Origin: Muricauda sp. SCSIO 65647
GTDB lineage: Bacteria > Bacteroidota > Bacteroidia > Flavobacteriales > Flavobacteriaceae
Length of the DNA: 64,000 bases
Reading direction: 5' to 3'
Assembly (NCBI RefSeq): GCF_021534965.1
Contig: NZ_CP091037.1
Coordinates: forward strand, 1,280,501 to 1,344,500
Position numbers and translations under genes: made by a program. The notes beneath the pieces are model-generated. The model was not told where the DNA came from. It did not search any database and saw nothing but the letters and a program-made list of their open reading frames with translations. Of this stretch, positions 53,627 through 60,221 are shown one piece after another; positions within the stretch are counted from its first letter, which is position 1, and each line of letters opens with the position of its first letter.

Positions 53627-54067
53627 CTAGGTGTTCACTTTCCATTGATAACTGTCATCTTCGAAAAGCTCCTTACCGAAAACCGGCACATGGGTTTTGA
53701 TTTCCTCAACTATATGGTGCAGGGCCTCAAAAACTTCTTTTCTGTGGGGTGACGAAACAAACACAAACAAACAGATTTCGCCAACGGCAACCTTGCCCAA
53801 ACTGTGGTAAATATGCATACAGGTCAAATCGAATTTTTCAAATGCCGCCTCTCTGATCTCATGAAATTTTTGGTTGGCCATACTTTCGTACGCTGTGTAT
53901 TCGATGGCCGAAACGATTCTCCGATCAATTTCGTCGGCACGCACCTGTCCCAAAAAAATATCATGGGCACCTATCTGGGTCTTTGACTGGTGCTTGGCAA
54001 TGGAGTTGGCAATAAAATCAGGGCCTATTGCTCCATCAACAAACACGTTTTTGATTTTCTTTTTCAT
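53627..54067 (-). CDS. moaE: Molybdopterin synthase catalytic subunit MoaE
   Basis: 146 residues. HDIFLGQVRADE, IEYTAYESMANQ, HSLGKVAVGEICLFVFVSSPHR and PVFGKELFED give the known MoaE order, with active-site Lys and Arg. It inserts dithiolene sulfurs carried by MoaD. First gene of a moaE-moaC pair. Confidence 0.93.
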   Translation of the reverse strand: MKKKIKNVFVDGAIGPDFIANSIAKHQSKTQIGAHDIFLGQVRADEIDRRIVSAIEYTAYESMANQKFHEIREAAFEKFDLTCMHIYHSLGKVAVGEICLFVFVSSPHRKEVFEALHHIVEEIKTHVPVFGKELFEDDSYQWKVNT

Positions 54068-54136: not shown

Positions 54137-54144
54137 TATTTTTG
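54137..54144 (+). promoter_or_regulatory. -7 promoter element driving the tRNA-Arg locus
   Basis: TATTTTTG matches TAnnTTTG and ends 13 bases before the outermost tRNA half. It is the only good promoter match before the nested array, so the whole array is probably one transcript. Confidence 0.5.
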
Positions 54145-54241
54145 CCGTCCACAGGTTGGCCCCGTAGTTAAAGGGATAGAACGGAAGCCTGCCTGCGTAC
54201 CGTAAAACAAAGGCCTCATAGTTCAAGGGATAGAATAGAAG

Positions 54242-54351
54242 CCTGCCTGCGTGCCGTAAAACAAAGGCCTCATAGTTCAAGGGATAGAATAGAAGTTTCC
54301 TAAACTTTAGATCCAGGTTCGAGTCCTGGTGAGGCCACTCCGGCAGGCAGG
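54242..54351 (+). mobile_element. Inner inserted 110-bp unit carrying an intact tRNA-Arg
   Basis: Left end CCTGCCTGC plus leader to 54265, complete tRNA-Arg with its CT tail, and right end CCGGCAGGCAGG (54340-54351). Compared with the outer unit it differs at one base in the leader (54253 G versus 54199 A) and one in the right end (54340 C versus 54396 T). No protein is encoded, so any transposase must act in trans. Insertion without target duplication next to a fixed GAAG recalls single-strand (IS200/IS605- or RAYT-type) mobilisation; this is inference. Confidence 0.6.
54266..54337 (+). tRNA. tRNA-Arg (anticodon CCT)
   Basis: 72 bases. Acceptor GGCCTCA / TGAGGCC; D stem GTTC / GAAT; anticodon stem GAAGT / ACTTT with loop TTCCTAA (anticodon CCT, reads AGG); T stem CCAGG / CCTGG with loop TTCGAGT; discriminator A. 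CCA is not encoded. It is the only intact tRNA in the window. Confidence 0.93.
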
Positions 54352-54685
54352 TTTCCTAAACTTTAGATCCAGGTTCGAGTCCTGGTGAGGCCACTTCGGC
54401 AGGCAGGTTTCCTAAACTTTAAATGCAAGTGATTCTTGCCGGGGCCACTCTCTTAGCTACAGCCTTTTCCCTTCCATTTTTGATCATATGTCTTTCATGC
54501 AAATTGGGCGCTTCTTGGCAAATGCCATTGGGTTGCCAACAATGTTGTTTTTTACAACTCCCCCTTTTTGACTTTGATAGGTAAACGAACCCTAGAAAGT
54601 TCTCCATAATGCCAACCCCTATAATTCCACACTAAAAATTATGTCTTGATTTATAGGGCGAGTCTTATACGGTATATGGCAACGC

Positions 54686-54693
54686 TACATTTG
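54686..54693 (+). promoter_or_regulatory. -7 promoter element of the efflux operon
   Basis: TACATTTG matches TAnnTTTG, 49 bases before the TolC-family start. The preceding 54450-54685 shows no gene or RNA I can recognise. Confidence 0.4.
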
Positions 54694-54741
54694 TTTCGCA
54701 AAATGGGTGACAGCCCTGTTCACCACCAAACAACGAAACAA

Positions 54742-56055
54742 ATGAAGTGTCAATTTCGCTCTTTACTCTTTTGGGTCTTTGGTATCGCCATATCGATGCA
54801 CACCCCATCGTATTGCCAAGAACTGGACTTGCAATCTTATATCGAATTGGTAAAAAAAGACAATATCGATTTGAAACAAAGTGCAAAACAGGTGCTCATA
54901 GCAAGGGAAGAAACCAAGATTGCCAAATCAGCACTACTGCCAGACGTAAATGTCAATGGGTTTTATCAACGTGACTTCAATAGAAATTTTCTCTTTATCA
55001 ACGATTTTGATGGAAGTACGACACGGTTAAGAACCAACTTCAACAACAGTGTAAGTGCCAATGCCGCGCTGAACCAGACCCTTTTCGATCCCGCCATTTT
55101 TTCTGCTGCGAAAATTGCGAAGCTTGCTGAGGAAATCAGCGGGCTACATGACGAACACCTTCACAATGAGCTTATTGTACAGGCTTCCTCTTTGTATTGG
55201 CAGGCCATTTTTACCAAAGCAAGTGTCACCGTACTTGTTGAGAATTCGACCTTGGCAGAAGAGCAATTGGCCCAAATCAAGAAGCTGCACGGCAAGGGCA
55301 CGGTAAGTGATTTACAGGTACAACAAGCCGAGGTCTTCTATAAAAAAACACTCCCCCCGCTTAAAAATGCCAAAAATCAATTTGGAAAATTGATGAACGA
55401 CCTTAAAGTATTGGCCAACATACCCCTTACCGAACGTATTGTTCTCACCGATGATCTCGAAACCACGGACCTCAACAATGTCATCTATACCGATGAGGCA
55501 GATCTAGAGGGGCAGCCGAAGCTCAAAACCTTAAAAAAAGAGGTCGAGATCGCCGATAGGCAAATCAACCTCAATAAGAAATTTTGGTACCCCAAATTGA
55601 ATCTGACCGCAGCATATAATTATGATGCCCTGGCCAATGATTTCAAATTCAGTGACAATGAAAACAAATTGTTCCTTGTGCAGCTGGGGGTCAGTGTACC
55701 CATTTTCTCAGGGGGTAGCAACAGGGCCAAAATTGCCAAGGCTTCCATTGAAAGGGAAACGGCAGAACTCGACCTTGTCAAAACGAAACAACATTTGCTC
55801 AATCAACTTCGAGCGGCCGAAAACAATTATAACAGTGCCATGGCCAATATTGAAACATATAGGCAGACCATATTGTTGAATGAGAGCGAACTGGAAATTT
55901 TCAAAAAGCAACTAAGCCTAGGTGTCGTCACCACCGTCGAATTCAAGGAAAGTCGATTGCGGCTCACGCAATCCAGATTAGAGCTGTTAAACTCATACCT
56001 GGATTTACATATAGCACACCTTCAAATTTTAAGGATCACGGGCCAAATAAACTAA
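54742..56055 (+). CDS. TolC family outer membrane efflux channel
   Basis: 437 residues from ATG 54742; the longer in-frame reading starts with a leader unlike a signal peptide. A signal peptide (MKCQFRSLLFWVFGIAISMH) is followed by two helix-strand repeats typical of TolC, with long coiled helices (VQQAEVFYKKTLPPLKNAKN; FKESRLRLTQSRLELLNSYL). First gene of a tripartite pump operon. Confidence 0.88.
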   Translation: MKCQFRSLLFWVFGIAISMHTPSYCQELDLQSYIELVKKDNIDLKQSAKQVLIAREETKIAKSALLPDVNVNGFYQRDFNRNFLFINDFDGSTTRLRTNFNNSVSANAALNQTLFDPAIFSAAKIAKLAEEISGLHDEHLHNELIVQASSLYWQAIFTKASVTVLVENSTLAEEQLAQIKKLHGKGTVSDLQVQQAEVFYKKTLPPLKNAKNQFGKLMNDLKVLANIPLTERIVLTDDLETTDLNNVIYTDEADLEGQPKLKTLKKEVEIADRQINLNKKFWYPKLNLTAAYNYDALANDFKFSDNENKLFLVQLGVSVPIFSGGSNRAKIAKASIERETAELDLVKTKQHLLNQLRAAENNYNSAMANIETYRQTILLNESELEIFKKQLSLGVVTTVEFKESRLRLTQSRLELLNSYLDLHIAHLQILRITGQIN

Positions 56056-56085
56056 ATGCCATCCCAAAAAATAAAGTATCAAAAA

Positions 56086-57099
56086 ATGAAGACAATAAAG
56101 CGTTTATCGATGTTAGCCATTTCGTGTTCCCTGTTTGTGGGCTGCTATTGGCCTGAAACCTCACAAGAAACCACTAGGGAAGAACCGATCAAGGTAAAGG
56201 CAATCACCCTAAAAAAGGAGCCATACAATGAAACAAAGGTCTATCATGGAGAACTGCAATTTTCCAAATCGGCGAGCTTTGTCGCACAACAGCCCGGAAT
56301 AGTGACCAAGCTCAATGCCAGACCCGGTCAAAAAGTGCGACGGGGTGAGGTTGTTGCGGTATACCCACCATTAAACCACCAATTACAGATCGATCAGGCA
56401 AGGATAGAGCAGAACAAGATAGCCCAAGATTATACACGGCAACAAGAATTGTTTAAGGCTGGTGCCGTTTCAAAGGTATCTGTTGATACCTATAAAACCC
56501 AATTGGATGTTCTGGTCAAAACGACCCAGCAACTGCAAAATATGAACACCATTAGGGCACCTTTTTCAGGAATCATTACACAAGTGCCGGTCAAAATCGG
56601 TGAGGAAGTGGGCATGGGACAAGCCCTGTTCAGCATGGCGGAAACAGCTACCGTAGAGGTAAATTTTTACGTAACGCCACATGACATTGCCCATATCGCA
56701 ATAGGGACAACAACCTATTTGACCCTCTCCCACAAAAAGATTGAAGGAAAAATCACAAAGACATCGATTCAAATGGATTCGAAACGAAAGGCATTTCTGG
56801 TTACCGCCTCATTTAAGAACGAAGGGGTATCCTTTACGGGCACCCACGTTGAAATTGAATTGGAAACCGGACCATCACTTTCGGGTATTTGGATTCCCGT
56901 GGAATCGTTAAAACAAATCGGAAACAGGCATTATGTATTCATTATCAAAGATGACAAGGCTATCGAAACCGACGTGAAAATAGGACAGCGAAACGAGACT
57001 TCCGTACAGATCACCGAAGGGCTGGAAGTAGGGCAGCGTTTGATCACCGCCGGTTCAGAAAAAGTGGAAAGAAATAGTCAGGTTTTAACCATTCAGTAA
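56086..57099 (+). CDS. RND efflux membrane-fusion (HlyD/AcrA) lipoprotein
   Basis: 337 residues from ATG 56086 (a start at 56056, right after the TolC stop, is possible). Lipobox SLFVGC suggests an inner-membrane lipid anchor. Order: beta-barrel, lipoyl half (QQPGIVTKLNARPGQKVRRGE), short hairpin, second lipoyl half (IRAPFSGIITQVPVKIGEEV), beta-barrel and membrane-proximal domain. It links the RND pump to the TolC channel. Confidence 0.9.
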   Translation: MKTIKRLSMLAISCSLFVGCYWPETSQETTREEPIKVKAITLKKEPYNETKVYHGELQFSKSASFVAQQPGIVTKLNARPGQKVRRGEVVAVYPPLNHQLQIDQARIEQNKIAQDYTRQQELFKAGAVSKVSVDTYKTQLDVLVKTTQQLQNMNTIRAPFSGIITQVPVKIGEEVGMGQALFSMAETATVEVNFYVTPHDIAHIAIGTTTYLTLSHKKIEGKITKTSIQMDSKRKAFLVTASFKNEGVSFTGTHVEIELETGPSLSGIWIPVESLKQIGNRHYVFIIKDDKAIETDVKIGQRNETSVQITEGLEVGQRLITAGSEKVERNSQVLTIQ

Positions 57100-57110
57100 A
57101 TAGAATAGTT

Positions 57111-60100
57111 ATGAAAGTCACCAATTTCGCAGTCTCTAGGCCGGTAACCACATCAATGGTCTTTTTGGCGCTGTTGCTGTTCGGATTTATGTCGTATGTA
57201 AAACTACCGGTAAACCTGATGCCCGAGGTAAATCTTCCGGCCATGGTAATCGTTACGGACTATCCTGGAGCAACTCCCGGTGAAGTGGAGACCGAGATCA
57301 CCAATCTACTTGAAAAAGAAGTGGCCACCATCAATGGGTTAAAACTCATGCAGTCTTACTCCATGCCCAATATGTCCATGATCATCGTTCAGTTTGAATT
57401 GGACAAAAACCAAGATAAGGCCATGGCCGAACTGCGCAACAAGATAGATCTGGTGGTTTCCTTTTTGCCCAAAGAGGCCAAATTGCCATTCGTTCGCAAA
57501 CGATCCAAGCCCCTATTGGCCCCTTTTAGTATGAACAGTGGTTCTGTGGTCGATCTGATCATTACCGGAAATGTCGATGCCAACAAACTCTACCAGCTAT
57601 CGAGACGGGAAATCAAGGACAAAATTTCGCGTATCGACGGGGTGACCAAAATTGAGTTCAACGGTGGAAAATTACGTGAAATTCATGTAGAGGTCGATAA
57701 GAACGGTCTATATGGTTTGGGCATGAACATTACAGCGGTCGCCACTCAATTAAAAGACAACAATGTAGATATGTCAGGAGGCGACATTGTAAGGGAAGAC
57801 CGTGAATCTATCATAAAGACCGGGAGCAAATACAACTCTGTACAATCCGTCAAAAGCACCTACATCGCCACCCCTTATGGGGAAAAGAAGCTGACCGATT
57901 TTGCTGCGGTAAAAGACACCTTCCAACTCGCAAAAAAAGATGCTTTCTTTTACGATGGTATTGAAAAAAAGGAACTTAACAATATTGTGGGCATAAGCGT
58001 GCAGAAAAGCAGCACCGCAAATGCAGTGTCCATAGCCAAGGCGGTAAAGGAACTGGTCCCTGAAATTCAAAAAAACTTGCCTGAAGGGGTTACCCTGAGC
58101 TTGCCATTTGACTCTTCAGAATATATCGAAAGCTCGGTGAACGATGCCATGATGAACGTTATTCTCGGCATTATCGTCACGGGTCTGATCTTGTTTCTCT
58201 TTGTGAACAATATCAAGGCCACGGTAATCGTGAGCATCTCCATTCCCGTATCGCTCATTATCAATTTTTTGGCCATGAGGCTCTTTGATGGATCACTCAA
58301 TATGCTGTCGTTGATGAGCTTTGCCGTAGCCATTGGCGCCTTGGTTTCCAACTCTATAGTGGTTTTGGAGAACATTCTTCGTCTCAAAAAAGAGGGTTTG
58401 CCCATAAAAGAGGCCTGCGTCACCGGTACCCAAGAAGTGTTTACGGCAGTATTGGCCTCGACAGGCACAAACTTGGTGGTGTTCTTGCCCATTGCATCCA
58501 TGAACTCGATAGTCGGTGCATTTTTTAGGGAATACGCCCTGACCATTTCATTCGCGACCATTTTTTCACTTCTGGTCTCCATTACCTTAACCCCGATGCT
58601 CGCCTCGATTCTATTGAAGAACGATCCAAAACCCTCTAAATTCTCCAATTGGATCATCAAATCATTTGACAGGCTACAAGAACTCTATGAAAAGTCATTG
58701 CGAAGGTTGATGTCAAGAAAACGCAACCCTATCATCTTGTTTGCCGTGATGTTCTTCTTCTTTATCATGAGCATGGGGTTGTTGGGGGAAATCGGATTTG
58801 AGTTCGAGCCAGAATCAGACAACGGCGATTTGTTTGTAGAGCTTGAAATGCAACCGGGCACCTCAATCGAGAAGAACAGGGAATTGACCAAATTGGTCGA
58901 ACAAAAGATCGCCACATATCCTGAAGTAAAGGCGGTATTGAGTATGTTGGGCAGTAAAAACTCCTTTACCACGGGCTCTAATTATACCAACATCTCACTG
59001 AAGCTCAACAAAAGTGTGGAACGCGAGCTGTCGAATGGCCAAATTGGCCAGAAACTACTAAATGACCTCAAAGAGATTCCTGAAATAAAACCTGTGGTGG
59101 CGACCACAAGTTCTGAAGAAAGTGGTGATCTGGGGTTCTCCTTAAAATCCAATGATGCCGCACAACTGTCCCGAGCAAATGATCAGGTCATGGACCTGTT
59201 GAAAGATGTGGAAGGTCTAATTTCATTTGAATCAAGTCTGCGAAATGGCCCACCCTTGCTTCAATTCAAGCCCAAGAAGCGTTTGTTGGCCGAATTGGGC
59301 ATCTCGGTCAATGAACTGGCATTGGTCATTCGAAGTGCCATTACAGGTATCAAGGCGACGGTGATGAGTGAAAATGATGTGGAGTACAACATCAACATCA
59401 AGGTTCCCGTTTCCCAGGCCAACTCTGTCGAGGATATCAAGCAGCTCCCCCTTCACACCGCGACGGGCATGTTTACCGTGGGGCAGTTGGCCGAGGTGTC
59501 TTATGAAACCGCCCCTGCCCAAATACTCCATAAAGAAAAGTCAAAAACGGCAGAGTTCAGCGCTACATTGGCCCCCGGTTACATATTGGGAGATGTCAGG
59601 TCAACCATCGATTCAAAGCTTAACGAAATAAATCTGCCCTCTGGCGTAGATTTCCAATGGAGCGGCAACGTGGAGGAATTGGACAATACGGTGGCCGATA
59701 TGACGATCACTTTTATATTGGCGCTGGTATTGATGTACATGTTGTTGGCCTCGCTCATGGAAAGTTTATGGCAGCCATTGGTCATTTTCACTACTGTTCC
59801 CATGGCGTTGATAGGGGTATTTGTGATCATGTATTTTGCCGGCACTACTATGAACATCATGTCTTTAATGGCCATCATTACCCTATTGGGCCTCGTGGTC
59901 AATGACGATATTTTGATCCACGACTATACTGAACAGTTGATGCACAAGAAAAAAATGGATATTCATAGTGCGACCATTCTTTCAGGAAAGACCAAAATGA
60001 AGGCCGTTATCATGACCACGGTCGCCATTATATTCGGTATGCTGCCCAATGCCATCGGTCTTGGGGATGCAGGAGCGGAATACAGAATACCCATGGCCAT

Positions 60101-60221
60101 AGTCACCATTGGCGGAATGATCACCTCTACGGTGCTCACGCTGTATTTGATTCCCTCCCTGTTCTATGTCATTAGAAGTAGAAGGCAAAAAAAAGCAGAT
60201 CATGAAACCCTCAAAAATTGA
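57111..60221 (+). CDS. RND-family multidrug/solute efflux permease
   Basis: 1036 residues. The AcrB/MdtBC layout: N-terminal span followed by porter domains (NLMPEVNLPAMVIVTDYPGA), twelve spans in two sets, and a second porter half (MFFFFIMSMGLLGEIGFEFEPESDNGD). A region near residue 400 (MLSLMSFAVAIGALVSNSIVVLENI) holds the span-4 site, here with Ala-Leu-Val-Ser-Asn in place of the usual GLVVDDA, so one of the proton-relay Asp residues may be missing. The second half has VVNDDILIHDY. Confidence 0.92.
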   Translation: MKVTNFAVSRPVTTSMVFLALLLFGFMSYVKLPVNLMPEVNLPAMVIVTDYPGATPGEVETEITNLLEKEVATINGLKLMQSYSMPNMSMIIVQFELDKNQDKAMAELRNKIDLVVSFLPKEAKLPFVRKRSKPLLAPFSMNSGSVVDLIITGNVDANKLYQLSRREIKDKISRIDGVTKIEFNGGKLREIHVEVDKNGLYGLGMNITAVATQLKDNNVDMSGGDIVREDRESIIKTGSKYNSVQSVKSTYIATPYGEKKLTDFAAVKDTFQLAKKDAFFYDGIEKKELNNIVGISVQKSSTANAVSIAKAVKELVPEIQKNLPEGVTLSLPFDSSEYIESSVNDAMMNVILGIIVTGLILFLFVNNIKATVIVSISIPVSLIINFLAMRLFDGSLNMLSLMSFAVAIGALVSNSIVVLENILRLKKEGLPIKEACVTGTQEVFTAVLASTGTNLVVFLPIASMNSIVGAFFREYALTISFATIFSLLVSITLTPMLASILLKNDPKPSKFSNWIIKSFDRLQELYEKSLRRLMSRKRNPIILFAVMFFFFIMSMGLLGEIGFEFEPESDNGDLFVELEMQPGTSIEKNRELTKLVEQKIATYPEVKAVLSMLGSKNSFTTGSNYTNISLKLNKSVERELSNGQIGQKLLNDLKEIPEIKPVVATTSSEESGDLGFSLKSNDAAQLSRANDQVMDLLKDVEGLISFESSLRNGPPLLQFKPKKRLLAELGISVNELALVIRSAITGIKATVMSENDVEYNINIKVPVSQANSVEDIKQLPLHTATGMFTVGQLAEVSYETAPAQILHKEKSKTAEFSATLAPGYILGDVRSTIDSKLNEINLPSGVDFQWSGNVEELDNTVADMTITFILALVLMYMLLASLMESLWQPLVIFTTVPMALIGVFVIMYFAGTTMNIMSLMAIITLLGLVVNDDILIHDYTEQLMHKKKMDIHSATILSGKTKMKAVIMTTVAIIFGMLPNAIGLGDAGAEYRIPMAIVTIGGMITSTVLTLYLIPSLFYVIRSRRQKKADHETLKN

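Follow-up and report, generated by a model that had tools for sequence, protein, structure and literature searches.

The window analyzed here, a 64,000-nucleotide stretch from the genome of Muricauda sp. SCSIO 65647 (G000; other genomes and loci are given by G and L numbers), carries at positions 54158-54449 an intact tRNA-Arg(CCT) gene that lies within a second copy of the same gene, which in turn lies within a third. Every split falls at GAAG^TTTC in the anticodon arm, and the order is native 5′ half, leader, 5′ half, leader, whole tRNA, right end, 3′ half, right end, native 3′ half (Table 1), just as a preliminary description of this DNA had laid out the sequence and its nesting. The locus sits within one 3.81-Mb contig, beside moaE. 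The moaE/moaC genes adjoin tRNA-Arg(CCT) also in G001, G002, G003, L050, L053 and L056, with the tRNA oriented towards moaE in L056 and L050 and away from it in the other moaE-adjacent loci. Downstream of the nest, at 54646-60221, are a gene for an outer-membrane efflux protein (Pfam OEP) and then, by reading, membrane-fusion and RND-type pump genes.

Table 1. Features in and around the nested tRNA-Arg(CCT) locus, in window positions
Feature	Position	Strand	Basis
moaE	53627..54067	-	Pfam MoaE 2e-28; synteny
Promoter-like TATTTTTG, 5′ of outer tRNA	54137..54144	+	Sequence reading
Dead 5′ half of native (outer) tRNA-Arg(CCT), GGCCCCG acceptor	54158..54187	+	Repeats; uninterrupted native copy in G002
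Cassette 1 left end and leader (CCTGCCTGC-GTACC-...)	54188..54211	+	Sequence, repeats
5′ half of cassette 1's own tRNA, split by cassette 2	54212..54241	+	Sequence, repeats, excision join
Cassette 2 left end and leader (CCTGCCTGC-GTGCC-...)	54242..54265	+	Sequence, repeats, cassette comparison
Intact tRNA-Arg(CCT) of cassette 2, GGCCTCA acceptor	54266..54338	+	ARAGORN; Rfam RF00005, 65.3 bits
Cassette 2 right end (TCCGGCAGGCAGG)	54339..54351	+	Sequence, repeats, cassette comparison
3′ half of cassette 1's tRNA	54352..54394	+	Sequence, repeats, excision join
Cassette 1 right end (TTCGGCAGGCAGG)	54395..54407	+	Sequence, repeats
Dead 3′ half of native (outer) tRNA-Arg(CCT), T arm damaged	54408..54448	+	Sequence, excision join

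ARAGORN calls a single tRNA in the locus, the innermost tRNA-Arg(CCT), and Rfam RF00005 agrees (54266-54337). Of the features described earlier, the repeats of 54 and 56 nt, the 9-nt inverted ends and the single-base difference in each arm of the two 110-bp units (leader GTACC or GTGCC, right end TTCGG or TCCGG) were all confirmed. The end sequence CCTGCCTGC occurs four times in the window, always within the nest, a count reached in none of 100 shuffles. Excision of the inner unit, or of both units, had been expected to restore a clean tRNA. When 54242-54351 is removed in silico, the tRNA-Arg(CCT) at the junction is indeed accepted by ARAGORN; removal of 54188-54407 leaves an outer gene that matches the native gene of G002 at 90% with two gap positions and draws no ARAGORN call. 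The outermost tRNA-Arg(CCT) is recognisable yet already decaying. Within G000, the anticodon-loop pattern TTYCTAAACTYTA is confined to the three places of the nest and BLAST with the 220-bp nest hits one place, so that neither search detects a further tRNA-Arg(CCT) in this genome. An assembly artefact or mis-resolved repeat in G000 is highly improbable: the contig is single, the nest has one BLAST place, the two units differ at two bases, and single-cassette versions were assembled independently in G001 and in named genomes.

How the innermost tRNA might be expressed is suggested by the upstream sequence. We take TATTTTTG to be promoter-like from its likeness to the Bacteroidota motif TAnnTTTG. 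By eye, the motif also precedes the broken tRNA in G001, L053, L056, L059 and G393 and the empty site of G002, and is absent in G138 (L045) and G003. Since no promoter-like motif was seen by eye in the cassette leader and TATTTTTG stands before the outer tRNA, the carried tRNA probably uses the promoter of the gene that was broken; TATTTTTG may drive the whole nest.

Across genomes, the cassette measures 107-110 bp and consists of CCTGCCTGC, a short leader, a 73-nt tRNA and CTNCGGCAGGCAGG, with changes in L056, L053 and G001. Leader, tRNA and right end are its entire content, without an integrase or protein gene; like a MITE, it is non-coding and has terminal inverted repeats. These ends, CCTGCCTGC and GCAGGCAGG, match short palindromes of the same genomes, and stand-alone genomic palindromes such as CCTGCCTGCATGCCAAAAGGTATGTAAACCGGCAGG carry cassette-type ends. 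In G000, CCTGCC palindromes account for nine match rows at seven places outside the nest, a dispersed palindrome shared with the cassette in the manner of REPs. A longer palindrome with an inner hairpin, CCTGCCTGCAT(G/A)CC...GGTATGTAAACCGGCAGG, is found at L022:1501-1536 and L028:1501-1535 in G000. To judge by sequence, the cassette ends look like this long palindrome with the tRNA replacing its middle. The RNA of the nest is predicted to fold as a cloverleaf within a cloverleaf, nested and stable (-116.7 kcal/mol, z -5.9), and the 13 pairs of the terminal stem, which include the target's GAAG/TTTC, are kept in 98.9% of cells, versus 30-52% when slid. Covariation in this stem lies within shuffles (134/500). 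End pairing was rejected as proof of an RNA function, as the tRNA repeats could explain the fold and covariation is within the shuffled range.

We looked for the same arrangement elsewhere by scanning a collection of 84,980 species for the 3′ half preceded by non-A and G. Among the 33 stretches found, 20 belong to Hymenobacter/Adhaeribacter and read by eye as uninterrupted tRNAs. The other 13 comprise five complete cassettes, two broken copies (L036, L050), one tRNA read as uninterrupted (L064) and five chance-like matches. The complete cassettes are those of L045 (G138), L049 (G001), L053 (Flagellimonas allohymeniacidonis), L056 (Flagellimonas sp. S3867) and L059 (Gramella sp. AN32). Single cassettes with like ends occupy the same site in two Flagellimonas, one Gramella and two further genera. 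With G000 and G393, seven genomes have both cassette ends, and all share one anatomy and one breakpoint, GAAG^TTTC (GAAA^TTTC in G393). An unconditional cassette pattern, which overlooks forms with altered ends such as L056 and G239, matched in 4 of 397 family genomes (G000, G138, G393 and G295); the match in G295 reads as a palindrome pair, and the three true cassettes are all in tRNA-Arg(CCT). An extra TTYCTAAACTYTA match on C7 of G393 (L142) was considered as a tRNA and discarded on reading.

These relatives present stages of the process at one locus. In G002, of the same genus, the native tRNA-Arg(CCT), with a GGCCCCG acceptor, is uninterrupted; one cassette is present in G001, likewise of that genus, and a nested pair in G000. 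In G003, a leader-like remnant precedes a tRNA of the inner type (GGCCTCA), without outer halves. Two loci look half-decayed: G239 retains a right end plus a dead 3′ half, and G227 a worn leader along with a dead 5′ half. A hairpin-bearing dead 5′ copy is present in G153. Dead tRNA-Arg 5′ copies with hairpins or palindromes also lie just 5′ of the intact gene in L006 (G010), L126 (G153) and L200 (G092), and displacement of tRNA-Arg seems recurrent. When the cassette of G138 is excised, the restored tRNA aligns to that of G002 at 98.6% over 73 nt, gap-free, which leaves no target-site duplication of the MITE kind. With the cassette taken out, the outer tRNA is called by ARAGORN in L045 and L053 and goes uncalled in G000 (outermost copy), L049, L056, L100 and L059; splicing would therefore rescue nothing in most bearers. 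A group I intron core needs more than 110 bp.

The preliminary description had proposed an element whose ends and target are both fixed and which carries a copy of its own target tRNA, makes no target duplication and renews the target on insertion. Empty and single-insert states in relatives, and like ends elsewhere, bear this out. Of the tests it had set that could have overturned it, two come out in its favor: cassette ends recur around tRNAs, and the relatives' intermediates share the breakpoint. As with a homing element, there is a cognate site (all three true unconditional matches lie at it) and there are empty, single and double alleles. The site is not destroyed, as it would be in homing immunity: the carried tRNA retains GAAGTTTC or AAAGTTTC and is itself interrupted in the window. 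As with a genomic island, the target is regenerated and displaced sequence is left behind, here both halves, with a whole tRNA supplied.

Could duplication in place account for the nest? The acceptor stems of the carried and the resident tRNA differ, and the first insertion was therefore no tandem duplication of the resident gene, a simple route that we ruled out for this level. The second level alone might in principle have arisen through unequal crossing-over between outer and inner tRNA halves, in two separate events of 54 and 56 bp, since on either side of the break these halves have some 20 nt in common. However, this would take two events with an identical breakpoint in place of a single insertion, the middle halves are identical to the inner tRNA along all of their 30 and 43 nt, and the first level, with its differing acceptor stems, stays unexplained. 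We regard this account of the second level as unlikely.

The cassettes fall into two types by acceptor sequence, GGCCTCA (G000, G001, L053, L056) and GCCCTAT (G138, G393, Gramella), and members of the latter are more alike than the rpoB genes of their hosts. The cassettes of G138 and G393 are identical at 108 of 110 positions versus 81.0% for rpoB, and those of G138 and Gramella at 104 of 110 versus 74.6%. On an rpoB tree, for which SH-aLRT is the only support, 3 of 16 inner branches are open and sites were labeled empty by reading of the loci, bearers are interspersed with genomes that have no broken halves. A moaC/moaE/epimerase tree was set aside in its favor for poor resolution (1 of 10 inner branches starred, outgroup split). 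The 18.5, 19 and 8 kb around the G138, G393 and Gramella loci have no neighbors in common at E 1e-15. Vertical descent of all cassettes is not favored, given the interspersion on the rpoB tree, the differing contexts and a cassette identity above that of rpoB. G393 and L053 do have downstream matches in common, a collagen-like protein (30%), an AraC-type regulator (97%) and a cupin-like protein (76%); with these three shared, their contexts may not be fully independent. The AraC-type regulator (L053:5529-6086, L105:1431-1988) is 97% identical across two genera, 3′ of cassette-bearing tRNA loci.

A native source for the GCCCTAT type was sought among the 397 genomes, six of which have such a tRNA. 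Two of these are the cassettes of G138 and G393, and the other four (G059, G092, G184, G302) are without full cassette ends; the nearest, G092 and G302, still differ by eye at 4 of 73 positions, and we did not adopt them as the source. A phage or plasmid carrier was likewise rejected: viral contigs gave 0 matches for GGCAGG plus the 3′ half and for both carried-tRNA 5′ ends, and BLAST against plasmids (4 records) and phages (best 20 of 67 records) gave partial matches with none covering 80% of the query. Sequence comparison gives the anatomy, the site, the stages, the near-identity across genera and the decay. On this comparison the nest is real, and mobility and site specificity of the unit, which to all appearance replaces its target, are well supported.

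One clue to how the unit spreads comes from Pedobacter. At L036, the broken copy from the scan, a GIY-YIG frame separates a broken tRNA-Arg(CCT) from an intact one, with the break in the T arm and not in the anticodon arm; this was the one place where GIY-YIG was seen beside tRNA-Arg(CCT), and it led us to search for PF01541 (GIY-YIG). Searches of ten genomes gave 34 loci with short ORFs, a set that leaves aside long-ORF proteins (24 of them reused as a control), matches without locus sequence, and L182 and L192 (no tRNA), and that scores L092, near tmRNA, as a miss. At 12 of the 34 (10 clusters, the pairs L072/L083 and L175/L183 each being one), the short GIY-YIG gene lies within 400 bp of an intact tRNA, a situation seen at none of 24 long GIY-YIG loci and none of 19 rpoB loci; the other 22 short GIY-YIG loci have no tRNA within 400 bp. 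All 12 have pieces of the same tRNA on the other side of the GIY-YIG gene (at L193 weak by BLAST, clear by eye). The tRNAs affected, per cluster, are Leu(CAA), Leu(TAA), Leu(GAG), Met, Arg(TCG) twice, Ser twice, Asn and Ala. A palindrome or hairpin is inserted in the dead copy at 11 of the 12 by eye, L189 being the exception.

Two of these loci illustrate the pattern. In G000 itself, the tRNA-Leu(CAA) gene at C1:1263.6-1264.3 kb (L096:1975-2750) is preceded by two tandem units, each a dead 5′ half and a short GIY-YIG gene, and each dead half is interrupted twice, at the same places, by palindromes such as CCTGCCTGCCGGTAGGCAGG. At L082:1384-1996 in G138, a dead 5′ half, a palindrome, an intact tRNA-Arg(TCG), a terminator-like hairpin, a GIY-YIG gene, a palindrome and a dead 3′ half follow one another. 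The split here is TCAGA^TTTCGG with differing CCTGCC palindromes at both breaks, a nested layout like that of the window with the nuclease included; L082 has a whole palindrome per break, whereas the cassette has half a palindrome per end. In the examined loci of the two-ended cassettes, six of seven have no GIY-YIG frame, and G393, the seventh, has its nearest match some 57 kb off. GIY-YIG genes do exist in cassette bearers, none of them tied to the tRNA-Arg(CCT) site, and a short one is present in the empty-site genome G002 as well. GIY-YIG is also the class of SegB, to which we return below. As a separate observation, L002, L045, L100, L200 and L201 have tRNA 3′-end fragments repeated downstream with a spacer of about 50-110 bp (ACGAAGTA or ACGAAGTGAGCG ... 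GTGA), which looks like a further element linked to the 3′ ends of tRNAs.

The preliminary description had instead looked to an IS200/IS605 or RAYT transposase acting in trans. A search of G000 and nine further genomes with the Y1_Tnp profile PF01797 gave no match in G000 or in six of the nine (G002, G003, G138, G239 and the genomes of L053 and L056), one match below the cut-off and with a stop in G001, one partial match just above it in G393, and three clear matches in Gramella alone. Four of the seven two-ended bearers (G000, G138, L053, L056) thus have no Y1 match, and we rejected RAYT or IS200/IS605 as the mover. Of the earlier interpretation as a whole, the target-carrying element with fixed ends and a fixed site stands, and its proposed mover is not supported. 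The differing acceptor stems, the decay of the outer copies and the small GIY-YIG genes among broken tRNAs of these organisms had escaped it.

A broader form of this idea is the main rival to our own: a MITE- or REP-like element with a captured tRNA, moved by a candidate transposase acting on the palindrome-like CCTGCCTGC ends, for which insertion next to TT would reflect the preference of the enzyme. The ends are those of stand-alone genomic palindromes, and the cassette site GAAG^TTTC is a purine^TT point, as are the places of several palindromes in dead tRNAs (TCAGA^TTTCGG twice in L082, GGG^TTCA twice in L175, GGAA^TTGG in L173, GCAAG^TTCG in L053). Other palindromes do not follow this rule, namely those at both points in the tRNA-Leu copies, at GGATA^GAATAG in G393, and in L022, L025 and L028. 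The palindromes, moreover, are dispersed, whereas the cassettes lie in tRNA-Arg(CCT) only (3 of 3 true matches), and clear Y1_Tnp is confined to Gramella as set out above. We consider transposition rather unlikely, though it deserves to be kept in view.

On balance, we lean towards a nuclease-less, target-carrying, site-specific tRNA cassette that spreads by homing-like break repair, with a nuclease supplied in trans. For this model we infer the transcription, the processing, the nuclease and the route of repair. An empty tRNA-Arg(CCT) gene would be cut through both strands in its anticodon arm by a small GIY-YIG nuclease; this enzyme is placed in trans by analogy with the tRNA loci described above, because in the loci examined six of the seven cassettes show no GIY-YIG frame and that of G393 has its nearest match about 57 kb away. 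Repair would copy an allele that bears a cassette, the conserved tRNA halves serving as homology arms, so that the cassette enters at GAAG^TTTC of the host gene without target duplication. Insertion would kill the host tRNA-Arg(CCT) and supply a replacement, probably read from the promoter of the host tRNA. As the carried tRNA keeps the target site, the process should be repeatable inside the cassette, and a second copy inserting into the first would give the nest. The displaced halves would then decay and leave the carried tRNA as the only tRNA-Arg(CCT) detected in the cell.

It is also conceivable that no dedicated enzyme is involved, and that the cassette is an ordinary allele spread by natural recombination alone, with the tRNA halves as arms and selection or drift behind it. 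Such an origin agrees with the tRNA homology on either side of a fresh cassette (about 30 and 43 nt), with the exact insertion seen in G138, and with the restriction of the true unconditional matches to tRNA-Arg(CCT). By itself, however, recombination explains neither the ends that match palindromes, nor near-identical cassettes across genera, nor the second nested copy, and we think it quite improbable.

Set beside known elements, the homing-like cassette has likenesses to several and coincides with none that we compared. Insertion of a classical homing element abolishes its cut site; unlike these, insertion of the cassette leaves the site renewed. MITEs are small, non-coding, have inverted ends and are moved in trans, and the cassette differs from them in making no target duplication, in having one fixed target and in carrying a copy of the target gene as cargo. 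MITEs are treated in PMC10969869. Integrase islands, as described in the Islander paper (PMC4383910), split tRNA genes and restore them, a regenerated gene and a displaced fragment marking their ends. They share with the cassette the site-specific entry into a tRNA gene, its splitting and its restoration. In the islands, integration is the work of a tyrosine integrase, and the gene is rebuilt from the island's end sequences. The cassette, unlike these islands, is 110 bp long and gene-less, carries a whole tRNA and leaves a displaced half on each side.

Closest in logic are mitochondrial endonuclease elements that enter a gene and bring a foreign replacement of the displaced part, which the GIY-YIG/tRNA loci found here resemble as well. 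PMC3630166 describes fungal endonuclease ORFs with replacement gene ends in Allomyces atp6 and in Glomus atp6, atp9, cox2 and nad3, for which horizontal transfer is argued. Those elements, as described there, lie in organelle protein genes, replace only the 3′ end and have the nuclease in cis, whereas the cassette carries the whole target gene without a nuclease. REP/RAYT systems have short dispersed palindromes, which the cassette ends match locally; the excerpts of the REP paper that we drew on (PMC3733652) mention inserts in genes for a tRNA-modifying enzyme and a tRNA synthetase, not in tRNA genes. The cassette departs from them in that Y1 transposases go undetected in four of the seven two-ended bearers. 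SegB of phage T6, in the part of PMC13096335 consulted, is a free-standing homing endonuclease tied to phage tRNA genes, and in this it is like the nucleases here; its setting there is a phage genome and segmental amplification, rather than tRNA genes broken and replaced. Among the open-access full-text matches listed, no title dealt with the nesting of a tRNA cassette in a tRNA or with the breakage of chromosomal tRNA genes by GIY-YIG genes; we likewise found no REP that carries a whole tRNA and is nested in its own copy and no description of a Bacteroidota economy of GIY-YIG nucleases and palindromes that replaces tRNA genes.

In Muricauda sp. SCSIO 65647, then, a 110-bp cassette has broken the only tRNA-Arg(CCT) detected and put a differing copy in its place. 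Empty, single, nested, decaying and resolved stages are visible, and like cassettes occur in several genera. We suggest, with the case for and against evenly poised, that such a target-replacing tRNA cassette represents a new class of selfish element, one that has no enzyme, becomes essential by killing the resident copy, can nest repeatedly and rides on a GIY-YIG/palindrome economy of the Bacteroidota that swaps tRNA genes for foreign ones. This system offers a means of asking by what steps a gene-less element becomes indispensable and how genera come to exchange tRNA genes. The natural target of the small GIY-YIG nucleases seen here may be tRNA genes. tRNA genes are usually regarded as vertically inherited core genes; if our reading is true, those of these Bacteroidota lineages would have been repeatedly exchanged for foreign ones.
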